Part shown: piece by piece, positions 12,899-21,033 of the stretch
Layout: each line of letters starts with the position of its first letter
How positions within the stretch are numbered: the first letter of the stretch is position 1
NCBI GenBank assembly: GCA_021790195.1
Contig: JAJYIF010000003.1
Location: forward strand, 1-64,000
DNA from: Nitrospirota bacterium
GTDB taxonomy: Bacteria > Nitrospirota > Thermodesulfovibrionia > Thermodesulfovibrionales > UBA9159
Length of the DNA: 64,000 nt
Reading direction: 5' to 3'
Position numbers and translations under genes: made by a program
Notes under the pieces: generated by a model
The model's database searches: none
What the model was told of the DNA's origin: nothing
The model's input: the letters and a program-made list of their open reading frames with translations, nothing else

Positions 12899-13186
12899 AT
12901 GAAGCACCTTCGCTTCGAGTGTGATCCCCGCAAGAGTCTTGAAAACCAGAGGAAACACGACGTTTCATTCGAAGAAGCACAGGCTGTTTTCCTTGACGAG
13001 AATGCCTTGATGATCCATGACCCCGATCATTCTGATGACGAAGACCGTTTTGTTCTTCTTGGATTGAGCGCGAAAATCCGTTTATTGACAGTATGTCACT
13101 GTTATCGAGAGAGCGATGAGGTTATCAGAATAATATCTGCGCGGAAGGCAACCCGCAACGAACAAAAAAGTTATTGGGAAAGGTGA
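12899..13186 (+). CDS. brnT: BrnT-family toxin
   Basis: 95 residues with the BrnT layout: RFECDPRKSLENQRKHDVSF at the start (the W/F-D-P-x-K-x-x-x-N-x-x-K-H-x-x-x-F signature), then DEDRFVLLGLS and a C-terminal RIISARKATRNEQKSYWE (ISARKAT-R-E-Y family motif). BrnT folds like RelE-type ribonucleases and is neutralised by BrnA. It overlaps brnA by one base at an ATGA-type junction. A near-consensus promoter lies directly in front. Confidence 0.93.
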   Translation: MKHLRFECDPRKSLENQRKHDVSFEEAQAVFLDENALMIHDPDHSDDEDRFVLLGLSAKIRLLTVCHCYRESDEVIRIISARKATRNEQKSYWER

Positions 13187-17018: not shown

Positions 17019-18116
17019 TCAGTCGTTCATGGGCTTTATGAACTTGAAATAAACCATCGTCCAGTTGCCCAGGATTATCGAGACCGTCGCCACTAAGCTT
17101 GAAAGAGCCATGGTTGACATACCTGTCACCCCGTGACCGAGGTTTCAGCCACCGGCGATAACGGCCCCAATCCCCATCAGTAAGCTCCCGAACAGAACGG
17201 TAAGGAATTCCTTTGCCTGGGGGATCTTCCACTTGAACTCTTTTAAGGAAAGTGCGCTTATCAAAGCGCCGATGGGTACTGCAAAGATAAAGAACACTCC
17301 CCATGTACCGGTAAATATGCCCAGGAAGCTGAATTCCGGAAAAGGCGAGTGAGAACTCCTGTAAAGGACAGCGTTGAAGAACTCCCTTACGGGCGTGGTG
17401 ATAGCAAGGCCCCTCGGGAAGCCGCCGAAATACGAAGAAGCTACCCACGCGGCTATGGTCAGGAGTCCCACCAGAAGTCCGGTCAGGCCCCACGAAAACG
17501 ATTTGGAGCTTTTCCCGAAGGAGGGCTTGCCCTTGAAGACGAAGATCAGAAGCGCGAGGCAGAAGATGCCGATCGTGAGCCATTTTGCCGTCGGACTGCC
17601 GCCGAAGAGGTCCCATATGGCCGGGTTCGTCTTGCCCCCGACCTCGACCTTCAAGCTCTTAAGGTAATCGTATATGGGACTCAGCAAGCCCTGGGTGGTC
17701 ATCACGATGCCCAGGAAAAAGCCGATGATCGCCGTTATGGTCGAGACCTGTCCTTCACCGACCCTGTATATAATGCCGCTGGCGCATCCGCCCGCAAGCA
17801 CTATGCCGACGCCGAAGATGAACCCGCCGATGACATTAGCAAGAGGGACAAAACTCTGCCGCATGAGCTCAACTTTCTCATAATGCCCGGTCGTCTGATC
17901 GAAGGTCATGAGAAGACCGAAGTGCTCTAGAAGGTTAGTCCCTATAATCGCCACAGCCACACATAGCAAATATGCCCTGAAAAAGGTCAGGTCCTTGACG
18001 AAGATAATGTCCCTGAAGGCCGAGTTCAGGCAAAAACGCCCTCTCTGCAGGACGAACCCCAAGCTCAGGCCGAGGATAAGTGCCGATATTACAGAATAGA
18101 TGTTACCTTGAAGCAT
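17019..18116 (-). CDS. YeeE/YedE-family transporter with probable selenocysteine at residue 324
   Basis: Read conventionally, the frame ends at a TGA (17145-17147) after IAGG. If the TGA is decoded, the frame continues 41 codons, NLGHGVTGMSTMALSS and so on to a normal stop at 17019, giving 365 residues. YeeE/YedE (DUF395, PF04143) proteins have about nine to ten membrane helices in two halves, each with a GGC motif; here the first half keeps LAGGCASG and the second has IAGG-TGA-NLGHG, where relatives have Cys. The extra 41 residues complete the last membrane helix and have the family's look. A SECIS-like hairpin follows the TGA. YeeE proteins import thiosulfate or other sulfur species; relatives are linked to selenium. 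It is the last gene of the USP operon. Confidence 0.8.
17112..17138 (-). promoter_or_regulatory. SECIS-like hairpin downstream of the in-frame TGA
   Basis: In the minus-strand RNA, seven to thirty-three bases after the UGA: an upper stem UGACA/UGUCA closed by the tetraloop GGUA, with a lower stem GGU/ACC and an internal bulge on the 5' side. Bacterial SECIS elements have a short stem with G and U in the apical loop, about 16-37 bases after UGA; here the loop begins 22 bases after it. Folding was done by hand. Confidence 0.68.
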
Positions 18117-18312
18117 ATGCCTCCCTTCCCTTACAAAAGTGCTCGTGTTTCCAGCATCCGTTTCCCATGGCTATCAGGACAGCCACTTTGGCCTTCTTCT
18201 CCACATCTTTGGAGACGCATCCCGTGACATATCTCTGTAGACGCGACTTTCCGCTGCAGCCCACAAGGATGAGATCAACGCCTTCCTCGTCGGCAACCAA
18301 TACCTTCTTCAT
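18103..18312 (-). CDS. Minimal USP-like protein with internal deletion
   Basis: 69 residues from an ATG with a strong AAAGGAGG site. It starts MKKVLVA like the full USP upstream (18342-18854), then jumps directly to the last third of a USP: EGVDLILVGCSGKSRLQRYV and TGCVSKDVEKKAKVAVLIA, matching VELIIVGCDRHEGLSRFIFG in that paralogue. About 90 residues, including the ATP-binding Asp region, are missing. It overlaps the yeeE start by 14 bases, so it is translated just ahead of the transporter. It may be a real small protein or a decaying paralogue; the good ribosome-binding site and coupling favour expression. Cys-rich (five Cys). Confidence 0.65.
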   Translation of the reverse strand: MKKVLVADEEGVDLILVGCSGKSRLQRYVTGCVSKDVEKKAKVAVLIAMGNGCWKHEHFCKGREAYASR

Positions 18313-18341: not shown

Positions 18342-18854
18342 CTAAGCTGCTGTAATCATCCCCGGCTCCCTCACAGCCGTCTTGTGTTCGGCCGTTTCTT
18401 TGGCCACAATTACGGGGACACCTGAATCCCTCTCCACCTGCTCGCTGACGCAACCGAAGATGAACCTGCTGAGTCCCTCATGCCTGTCGCAGCCGACGAT
18501 TATCAGCTCGACATTTTCCTCCTGTGCGACCTTCGAAATTTCCTCCGAGGGGATTCCCTCTCTTATCATCGTCGTTACTTTGACAAGTCCGCCGTTGTCG
18601 AATTTCTTCTTATAATGGCTGAGTATGCTCTCAGCTTTTCTGTCAAGCGCCTCTTTGTATTCCGTTCCCCTAAGCTGCTCTTTTAACGTCGACAGCTCTG
18701 CCTCTCCGAGCATGTCAATCATCTTCGTCCTTCCCTCAAGCCTTTCCACGTAGAGAAGTATTACCTCTTCGGGGGGCCTGACCAGGTTGTCGAAGACAGA
18801 CACCACGGATTCCGCGGCCCTGGTGTCATCGACTGCAACCAACACTTTTTTCAT
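18342..18854 (-). CDS. Universal stress protein (UspA family)
   Basis: 170 residues with UspA-fold features: MKKVLVAVDDTRAAESVVSV (first strand and Asp), VILLYVERLEG, and ELIIVGCDRHEGLSRFIFGC where the usual GxxGxxGxxxxxxGS loop is degenerate (G-x-D-R-H-E-G-x-x-x-F-I-F-G-C). ATP binding may therefore be weak. UspA proteins help cells survive starvation and oxidative or energy stress. Second gene of a minus-strand operon: USP with membrane anchor, this USP, mini-USP, yeeE. Ribosome-binding site AAGGAGG. Confidence 0.85.
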   Translation of the reverse strand: MKKVLVAVDDTRAAESVVSVFDNLVRPPEEVILLYVERLEGRTKMIDMLGEAELSTLKEQLRGTEYKEALDRKAESILSHYKKKFDNGGLVKVTTMIREGIPSEEISKVAQEENVELIIVGCDRHEGLSRFIFGCVSEQVERDSGVPVIVAKETAEHKTAVREPGMITAA

Positions 18855-18892: not shown

Positions 18893-19486
18893 TTAATGCT
18901 GAAACTTACCTCCCTGAAGAAAGATGCCCAAAATGTAAAGACCGGCTACAAAAATTGCGGTCACCGAAATTGCGGCAACGGCATCTCTCCAGGTATAGGG
19001 CTCCTCGCAAAGGTTTGCCCTCTTGGCCACGAGAACGGGGACCTTTGCCCTCTCCTGCACCTCCTTCGCAAAATTGCCCGAGATGAATCTGTTCAGTCCT
19101 CTTCTTCCGTCGCCCCCCATGATAATAAGTTCTGCATGTTCTTCATCTGCGACCTTAAGGATTTCCTCTGCGGGATGTCCCGCGCGTATTATGGACTTGA
19201 CACTTATTCTGCCGTCCTCAATCTCGCGGCGGAAGCGGTCCAGTGCTATTTCTGCTGTTTCATCGAGCCTGCGCTTATGCTCGCTGTCCTTGAGGGCGTC
19301 CTTCAGGGTGGACATTTCAGCATCGCCGAGCATATCAGTCAGAAGAGACCTGCCCTCGAGCCGCTGGACGTAAAGGAGTATAGCTGTCTGGGGCCTTCTC
19401 ACCAGGTTTTGAAAGGAGGATAAGACCGACCTTGAAGACCTTGTATCGTCCACTACGAGCAGCACACTGTTCACACTGTTTTCCAT
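18893..19486 (-). CDS. Universal stress protein with C-terminal membrane anchor
   Basis: 197 residues: a UspA domain (SVLLVVDDTRSSRSVLSSFQ, AILLYVQRLEG, ELIIMGGDGRRGLNRFISGN, VPVLVAKRA) followed by a C-terminal hydrophobic segment (AAISVTAIFVAGLYILGIFL), which should fix it to the inner membrane. A USP tethered next to a YeeE transporter gene suggests a membrane-proximal sensor or regulator; this is inference. First gene of the operon. A -24/-12 promoter ends so close upstream that the mRNA would have almost no leader if this ATG is used; GTG codons at residues 5 and 8 are alternative starts. Confidence 0.82.
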   Translation of the reverse strand: MENSVNSVLLVVDDTRSSRSVLSSFQNLVRRPQTAILLYVQRLEGRSLLTDMLGDAEMSTLKDALKDSEHKRRLDETAEIALDRFRREIEDGRISVKSIIRAGHPAEEILKVADEEHAELIIMGGDGRRGLNRFISGNFAKEVQERAKVPVLVAKRANLCEEPYTWRDAVAAISVTAIFVAGLYILGIFLQGGKFQH

Positions 19487-19677: not shown

Positions 19678-21033
19678 ATGAATCTTGACGCTCTATTAAA
19701 AGACCCTCAGTTCGTGCCTGAAGTGTTCGAGACTATGAGGGACGGCCTCCTTGTGATAGACGCTGAAGGAAATATTAAACTCTTCAATCGGGCGGCGGAG
19801 GAGATTACAGGCTATCGAAGAGAGGAAATAATTGGAAAGAAATGCGCCATGCTGGGATGTGATACCTGCGCGATGCTCACGGAGGCCGGCAGGCAGCGAA
19901 ACGGCAAATCCGTAAGATTCAGTTCTGTTCACGACAAGGAATGCTGCATGTCCGGCGCAGGCGGGCGCCCGGTTTATGTGTTGAAAAACCTCGTGATCCT
20001 TAGGGATGAGAGGGGCGAAATAATAGGCGCGGTCGAATCGATAACCGATATTACTTCTCTTTATTTGAAGGAACAGGAGCTGCAGGGGCTGAGGCAGGAG
20101 ATGCGTCAGGAGTATTGGTTCATGGGGCTTCTGGGCAAGAGTATGCCTATGCAGAGACTGTATGAACACATCCGGAACGCGGCCGTTAGCGAGGCCCCGG
20201 TGCTGATATATGGAGAGAGCGGCTCCGGGAAGAACCTTGCGGCCAATGCGATACACAAGCTGAGCAGGCGGAAGGACGGGCCCTTTATTCAGATGAACTG
20301 CGCCTCCCTTAACGAGCAGCTGCTCGAAAGCGAGCTCTTCGGCCATAAGAAAGGCTCATTTACGGGGGCCGTGAGTGACAGGACCGGGAGGTTTGAGGCT
20401 GCCGACGGGGGAAGTATCTTCCTTGACGAGATAGGCGACATGCCGACGACTATGCAGATCAAGCTTCTGAGGGTCCTCGAGGAGAAGGTGGTGGAGCGTG
20501 TAGGGGATCACGCGCCCATATCCGTCAACATAAGGCTTATATCGGCCACGAACAAAGACCTCAATTCAATGGTCTCTCAGGAGAGGTTCAGGGAGGACCT
20601 GCTTTACAGGATCAATTCCATTGTGATCAAAGTGCCCCCGCTGAGAGAGAGAAGGGAGGACATTCCGCTCATCGCCATTCACTACCTGAAGAAGATCTCC
20701 CATGTGAACAACAAGGAGATAAGAAATATAAGTCCGGCGGCCATGCAGGTGCTTCAGGACTTCCCCTGGCCCGGCAATGTCAGGAGACTTATCAACGCCC
20801 TCGAATACAGTGCGGTCACGTGCAAGAACGATACTATAGACGTCCAGGACCTGCCGGACTATCTCGTCTACGAAAAGAGAGAGGGCGCTGATGAGAACAA
20901 CGCCGAACGCGAGAGACTGCGCTCGACGCTCGCTCTCTATAAGGGCAACAGGACTTTGGCGGCCAGGCATTTAAATATCAGCAGGACTACCTTATGGAAG
21001 AAGGTCAAGGCCTTCGGACTGGATAACAGGTGA
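19678..21033 (+). CDS. PAS-containing sigma-54-dependent transcriptional activator
   Basis: 451 residues. An N-terminal PAS domain (about 12-130: MRDGLLVIDAEGNIKLFNRA) contains an unusual cysteine cluster (KKCAMLGCDTCAM, DKECCM). The central AAA+ domain has Walker A GESGSGKN, ELFGHKKGSFTGA (GAFTGA loop with Ser at position 2), Walker B GGSIFLDEIGD and FREDLLYRIN. A Fis-type HTH is at the C-terminus (GNRTLAARHLNISRTTLWKK). It remodels sigma-54 polymerase at -24/-12 promoters. It overlaps the kinase gene by 4 bases, yet has no receiver domain to accept phosphate. Likely target: the divergent USP-yeeE operon. No clear ribosome-binding site is seen. Confidence 0.9.
   Translation: MNLDALLKDPQFVPEVFETMRDGLLVIDAEGNIKLFNRAAEEITGYRREEIIGKKCAMLGCDTCAMLTEAGRQRNGKSVRFSSVHDKECCMSGAGGRPVYVLKNLVILRDERGEIIGAVESITDITSLYLKEQELQGLRQEMRQEYWFMGLLGKSMPMQRLYEHIRNAAVSEAPVLIYGESGSGKNLAANAIHKLSRRKDGPFIQMNCASLNEQLLESELFGHKKGSFTGAVSDRTGRFEAADGGSIFLDEIGDMPTTMQIKLLRVLEEKVVERVGDHAPISVNIRLISATNKDLNSMVSQERFREDLLYRINSIVIKVPPLRERREDIPLIAIHYLKKISHVNNKEIRNISPAAMQVLQDFPWPGNVRRLINALEYSAVTCKNDTIDVQDLPDYLVYEKREGADENNAERERLRSTLALYKGNRTLAARHLNISRTTLWKKVKAFGLDNR

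Follow-up and report, generated by a model that had tools for sequence, protein, structure and literature searches.

The closest described relatives of the gene studied here belong to the YeeE/YedE family of transporters. In StYeeE/TsuA (PDB 6LEO and 8K1R), the cysteines C293, C91 and C22 form a proposed thiosulfate relay (PMC11073785), and Cys91 and Cys293 are indispensable (PMC11582611). A selenoprotein of the family is also on record: WP_012471001.1 is listed as a YeeE/YedE selenoprotein in two reviews (PMC13188914, PMC9312934), the later of which gives the motif GUxSG with a single selenocysteine (Sec) and assigns proteins that differ in Sec position to separate subfamilies. More distant are the selenium YedE (TIGR04112) and YedE/FdhT (NF033796) proteins, while the report on yeeE-tusA-dsrEFH type II/YTD clusters (PMC13293266) has no occurrence of 'selen'.

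We analyzed a 64,000-nucleotide stretch of a Nitrospirota genome (contig JAJYIF010000003.1, positions 1 to 64,000; hereafter, the window), which carries a yedE/yeeE-family gene at 17019–18116 on the minus strand. Its frame opens with ATG at 18116, runs to 17019, and encodes 365 amino acids when codon 324, an in-frame TGA (17145–17147, minus strand), is read as Sec. This codon directly follows the residues ...GAVIAGG and is succeeded by 41 sense codons, NLGHGVTGMSTMALSSLVATVSIILGNWTMVYFKFIKPMND, and a final stop. The initial annotation of this DNA had the coordinates and the length of the extended protein right, the gene itself lying on the minus strand. It had also described a normal stop at the end of the extension: the frame does end there, but the stop codon is itself a TGA (17019–17021, minus strand), followed by an in-frame TAA (17018–17016).

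With residue 324 read as Cys, the protein matches the Pfam family Sulf_transp (PF04143) over residues 25–353 (E-value 4.5e-70), with 237.1 bits against a gathering threshold of 27 and coverage of profile positions 1–310 of 310. It aligns end to end with StYeeE, the C-terminal part matching residue for residue, and its C29, C111 and U324 align with StYeeE C22, C91 and C293, the third, second and first relay cysteines, respectively. Because residue 324 falls on StYeeE C293, the TGA occupies the first relay position. It also sits at the matching Cys of the internal repeat (LAGGC111/IAGGU324), as had been recognized from the sequence at the outset. The predicted model (mean pLDDT 84.9) has 6LEO and 8K1R as its nearest structures (TM 0.71–0.88), with TM 0.79–0.88 for 6LEO. 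Fold, full-length alignment and the placement of the three relay residues unite the window protein with StYeeE/TsuA, although its first relay residue is UGA-encoded and accompanied by a SECIS-like hairpin, and no adjoining TsuB/YeeD gene was seen: no TusA/TsuB/YeeD partner is apparent among the ORFs neighboring yedE, some of which were profile-searched. Its score to the NCBIfam TsuA equivalog (NF052577) is 221 bits, below the cut-off of 400.

With WP_012471001.1, the window protein shares the PF04143 family and one Sec in place of a relay cysteine. The positions differ, however. Judged by the published motif, the Sec of WP_012471001.1 replaces the second relay cysteine, within the GGxxSG of the first half, where the window protein reads GGCASG with C111; its own Sec would lie in the second half, at the first relay cysteine (GGUNLGHG). 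Because the Sec position differs and subfamilies are split by position, Sec at the first site is set apart from the listed GUxSG member. The initial annotation, which knew of no described Sec-containing member and suggested that this one may be new, needs correcting here: a member is already listed, with its Sec at another relay cysteine. Neither first-site Sec nor the double Sec described below appears for YeeE/YedE in the published selenoprotein inventory, taken here as the sources outside subscription papers and protein databases. Furthermore, YeeE/YedE is absent from the main text of the 2025 deep-Sep paper, and plasmid records yielded only distant YeeE proteins, the GUxSG example not being recovered among them. 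Within the literature searched, a YeeE/YedE selenoprotein is therefore already known, and first-relay-site Sec and double Sec are new positions.

The product is probably a YeeE/TsuA-type importer of a reduced sulfur compound, most likely thiosulfate or sulfane sulfur. A cargo of selenium rather than sulfur, as for the selenium YedE, would be compatible with Sec insertion; YedE is a predicted selenium transporter in some organisms (PMC5322559), and relatives of the window gene from a different subclade occur in LysR_Se-yedE-yedF clusters. We nevertheless consider a selenium cargo doubtful, in that homology to TIGR04112 and NF033796 is distant, strongest over the N-terminal half, and far below both cut-offs (43.9 bits for TIGR04112 against a curated cut-off of 200). 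Moreover, the window gene does not lie beside selD or yedF, its neighbors are UspA genes and a regulator with no selenium genes among them, and a Sec residue does not by itself define the cargo.

The TGA at codon 324 recurs well beyond this gene. A second yedE copy on another contig of the same genome, 85% identical, has the same TGA, and the 39 codons that follow it comprise 27 identical, 7 synonymous and 5 nonsynonymous positions between the two copies. When 84,980 species genomes were scanned with an exact pattern for a UGA within the second-half motif of yedE, 30 further loci emerged, and every one of them is a true YedE gene (Nitrospirota, 29; Synergistales, 1); the pattern was not found in viral contigs. 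Homologues carry either Cys or TGA at the codon aligned with window codon 324, the comparison by which the initial annotation had proposed to judge its reading, and the C-terminal part of the window protein matches such relatives residue for residue. Across 118 YedE copies (duplicates included), in-frame TGA occurs only at the Cys22 and Cys293 sites in the region from the first relay motif to the last helix. A general use of UGA as a sense codon is ruled out, YedE genes often ending in UGA and having none elsewhere.

On the YedE tree, the window gene and its paralog are nested as a pair in a 23-row clade whose remaining 21 members have Cys, and adjoin the nearest relative, G006, which has TGC. 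Because the other members of this clade have Cys, a transporter of this type can do without Sec. A single Sec at the Cys293 site occurs in several clades, its 14 rows corresponding to 6 label changes, at least 4 of which are forced by well-supported branches. For the window clade, the arrangement points to a recent Cys-to-Sec switch that would have preceded the duplication, with repeated loss as the alternative.

Downstream of the TGA lies a SECIS-like hairpin (17112–17131, minus strand; stem region GUGACAGGUAUGUCA), with a GGGUGAC/GUCAACC stem containing one G.A mismatch and a 6-nt loop, AGGUAU; it starts ~13 nt, and its loop ~21 nt, after the UGA. As SECIS criterion we used a hairpin just 3′ of the UGA with a G early in the apical loop, and across the family the loop opens with A or C and then GG. 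When the Cys293-type UGA genes are aligned from the TGA, they share a hairpin at columns 17–23/30–36 with a loop beginning (A/C)GG ~21 nt after the UGA. Pairing holds in 90.6% of cells in 32 distinct UGA sequences versus 31.0% in 24 Cys sequences. Within the UGA set, both sides are changed in 20 cells; none of 500 shuffles scored as high, and slid versions of the stem reach 25–46%. RNAalifold recovers the same stem unprompted in the Cys293-type UGA genes; for the 24 Cys homologues, no consensus structure was found.

The nine hairpin codons are identical in both paralogs, while synonymous differences affect 34 of the 100 codons that precede the UGA, and compared with the Cys sister G006, five of the nine hairpin codons differ synonymously. 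Because the apparent Cys-to-Sec switch came with synonymous, hairpin-making changes, the window clade illustrates how a SECIS can originate inside a coding region. By itself the window hairpin is only modestly stable (z −1.2 to −1.4). Under codon-preserving shuffles with single-sequence folding, the mean z at the Cys293 site is −1.2 for the UGA set and 0 for the Cys set (p = 0.0002 for the contrast), and the corresponding difference at the Cys22 site is not significant (p = 0.07). Since single-sequence z values are only modest, the argument for the hairpin rests on the family alignment and its covariation. An Rfam search of the window gave no match, and no tRNA was found in the window. As a separate observation, the YedE of Synergistales assembly 54_24 (L058:801-832) is more TsuA-like and has its UGA at the second-half site with a different, strong hairpin.

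The genome also encodes the machinery for Sec insertion. SelB is present above cut-off (G000:C45, 377 bits), with selA nearby on the same contig (614 bits), and a tRNA-Sec with a UCA anticodon is found. The selD gene (G000:C40:63237-64154; L165) has an in-frame TGA in MSSCAGU-ASKFSP, and because of this TGA the genome's SelD is itself a probable selenoprotein. All four of selA, selB, selC and selD, which the initial annotation had named as the genes to look for, are thus in place. Its central proposal, that Sec replaces Cys at codon 324, gains support from the conserved TGA, the covarying hairpin and the Sec genes, and we regard SelB-dependent reading of UGA324 as Sec, with a full-length product, as highly probable on these genomic grounds. 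A ribosome reaching UGA324 would there encounter SelB with Sec-tRNA-Sec bound to the downstream hairpin, and Sec insertion would compete with termination. In the resulting transporter, the incoming substrate would make its first contact with a chalcogen at the selenol in the StYeeE Cys293 position and would then pass to C111 (the Cys91 site), C29 (the Cys22 site) and a cytoplasmic acceptor. The benefit from Sec, as we infer it, may be one of rate or affinity, through a more nucleophilic first contact at the membrane entry.

Because a selC*-type tRNA-Cys is encoded in the genome as well, UGA324 might be read as Sec or as Cys. This tRNA (G000:C36:66663-66757; L085:5664-5758) has a GCA anticodon, U73, an encoded CCA, tRNA-Sec-like stems and an acceptor end of ...CCCCCU-CCA; it matches RF01852 and is called tRNA-Cys(gca) by ARAGORN, features that place it in the selC*/tRNA-ReC class. 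Most genomes of the order have such a tRNA, and the class has been reported from Nitrospirae (PMC7609411). Going by its title, as given in PMC8124441, the study by Vargas-Rodriguez et al. (2018, RNA Biol.) concerns Cys recoding of UGA with such a tRNA and SelB. UGA324 could then be read mainly or partly as Cys, by a selC* tRNA that would be charged by CysRS and delivered by SelB, giving a Cys transporter at low selenium. We therefore treat Cys insertion, alone or as a low-selenium fallback, and not termination, as the serious rival and a live alternative. On balance we think it unlikely, as the genome has, alongside it, the tRNA-Sec (UCA), whose anticodon is fully complementary to UGA, whereas a GCA anticodon mispairs; in addition, a plain Cys codon serves in many relatives, so that keeping UGA for Cys alone would be pointless.

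The selC* tRNAs also have a recurrent genomic setting. Of 17 genomes selected solely for having the tRNA, 7 show a selC* tRNA linked to LysR_Se, yedE or yedF. In these it lies upstream of yedF at a distance of no more than a few kb, in several cases with LysR_Se flanking it on the opposite side, and the strand is always the same. In the genome of the window (G000), the selC* tRNA is followed by yedF, with genes for a 2-hydroxyacyl-CoA dehydratase-like protein and its activase, so named from their sequences, in between. Several Cys-type yedE genes of families f11 and f12 sit in LysR_Se-yedE-yedF clusters (LysR_Sec_metab, 307.8 bits with a cut-off of 250; YedF, 203.8 bits with a cut-off of 110), with a selC* tRNA just upstream of yedE. 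Same-strand associations of selC* tRNAs with LysR_Se, yedE, yedF and dehydratase/activase genes are seen at L037, L041, L042, L043, L138, L167, L170, L171, L175, L181 and L182. The idea that the tRNA-Sec-like element upstream of Cys-type yedE is a tRNA-Sec reading Cys codons as Sec was rejected; its U73 and GCA features and the class described in PMC7609411 indicate a selC* tRNA-Cys. We did not find the link between selC* and LysR_Se/yedE/yedF described in the literature searched, which covered sources other than the primary papers on these tRNAs. The selC* tRNAs at L037:3994-4116 and its equivalents in L041–L043 are ~123 nt long because their variable arm is very long, and ARAGORN misses them.

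Termination at UGA324 would yield a 323-residue product lacking the entry cysteine and the last helix, through truncation, decay or pseudogene formation. The standard code favors it, the frame formally ending at this codon. We judge it very unlikely, given that the 39 downstream codons are conserved relative to the paralog, the TGA lies at exactly the corresponding codon across many lineages, the hairpin covaries, and yedE has no other disruptions. A sequencing or assembly error for TGC or TGT, which the probable draft status of the source assembly (54 contigs) and the TGC of nearest relative G006 might suggest and which the initial annotation had itself raised, has a negligible chance and is excluded as an explanation because the TGA recurs, together with a matching hairpin, in the diverged paralog, which lies on a separate contig, and in 30 other genomes.

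With Sec as the preferred reading, a sister clade of 15 genes (support 100/98) extends the pattern to two positions: TGA occupies the Cys22 site (GRYUMNSAFRD) as well as the Cys293 site (GGUTVGH), and the Cys91 site is Cys wherever scored. In such double-UGA genes the first and third relay positions are both UGA-encoded, each UGA being followed by its own type of hairpin; YedE genes of this kind lie at L038–L040, L044, L045, L055, L059, L060, L063, L065, L066, L070, L072, L073, L078, L079 and L081. The Cys22-type hairpin (columns 14–23/29–40, loop CGUGA) is 96.9% paired with two pairs doubly changed, weaker evidence because its set is small and closely related. Upstream of yedE, this clade has small ORFs that are DsrE/DsrH-like by eye and recall the yeeE-tusA-dsrEFH type II/YTD clusters (PMC13293266), in which respect the window gene, adjoining UspA genes, is different. 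A reading of these small ORFs as UGA-containing TusA was rejected in favor of the DsrE/DsrH-like one, with no UGA, and a Pfam search of two of them returned no match.

Characterized selenoproteins are mostly redox enzymes. The YedE variants would place Sec in the substrate relay of a transporter, with natural variants at relay site 1, at sites 1 and 3, or, in the literature, at site 2. Cys and Sec versions have been swapped several times on one tree, providing a ready test of what selenium contributes to the transport of sulfur compounds. The association of selC* tRNAs with clusters of a selenium regulator and transporter also suggests a concrete role for this puzzling class of Cys-inserting, UGA-recoding tRNAs; if a selC* tRNA did serve as a low-selenium fallback, a transporter switching between Cys and Sec would follow. 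Tentatively, and as a possibility that we do not favor, YedE could be a selenium-tunable sulfur gate, taking Sec at high selenium and Cys through selC* when selenium is scarce; the selC* tRNAs in LysR_Se-yedE-yedF operons could then form a selenium-sparing switch, with relay cysteines converted to Sec by lineage (one, two, or the one of the literature's GUxSG).

The surroundings of the window gene are conserved in part. Members of its clade have one to three UspA-family genes upstream of yedE on the same strand, represented here by genes at 18342–18854 and 18893–19486 (both minus strand). Between them and yedE, a short UspA-like ORF of ~70 amino acids (18103–18312, minus strand) overlaps the start of yedE by 14 bp; it begins with MKKVLVA, retains only the C-terminal portion of the domain beyond that start, matches Usp profile positions 95–139 only, and seems to have arisen by in-frame loss of the interior of a UspA gene that is full-length in relatives L051–L053. 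A divergent gene at 19678–21033 (plus strand), named from its sequence, encodes a PAS/sigma-54-type activator, and genes for sigma-54/PAS-type regulators or kinases lie near yedE in several relatives. Elsewhere in the window, a small ORF at 12899–13186 (plus strand) is BrnT-type toxin-like by eye.
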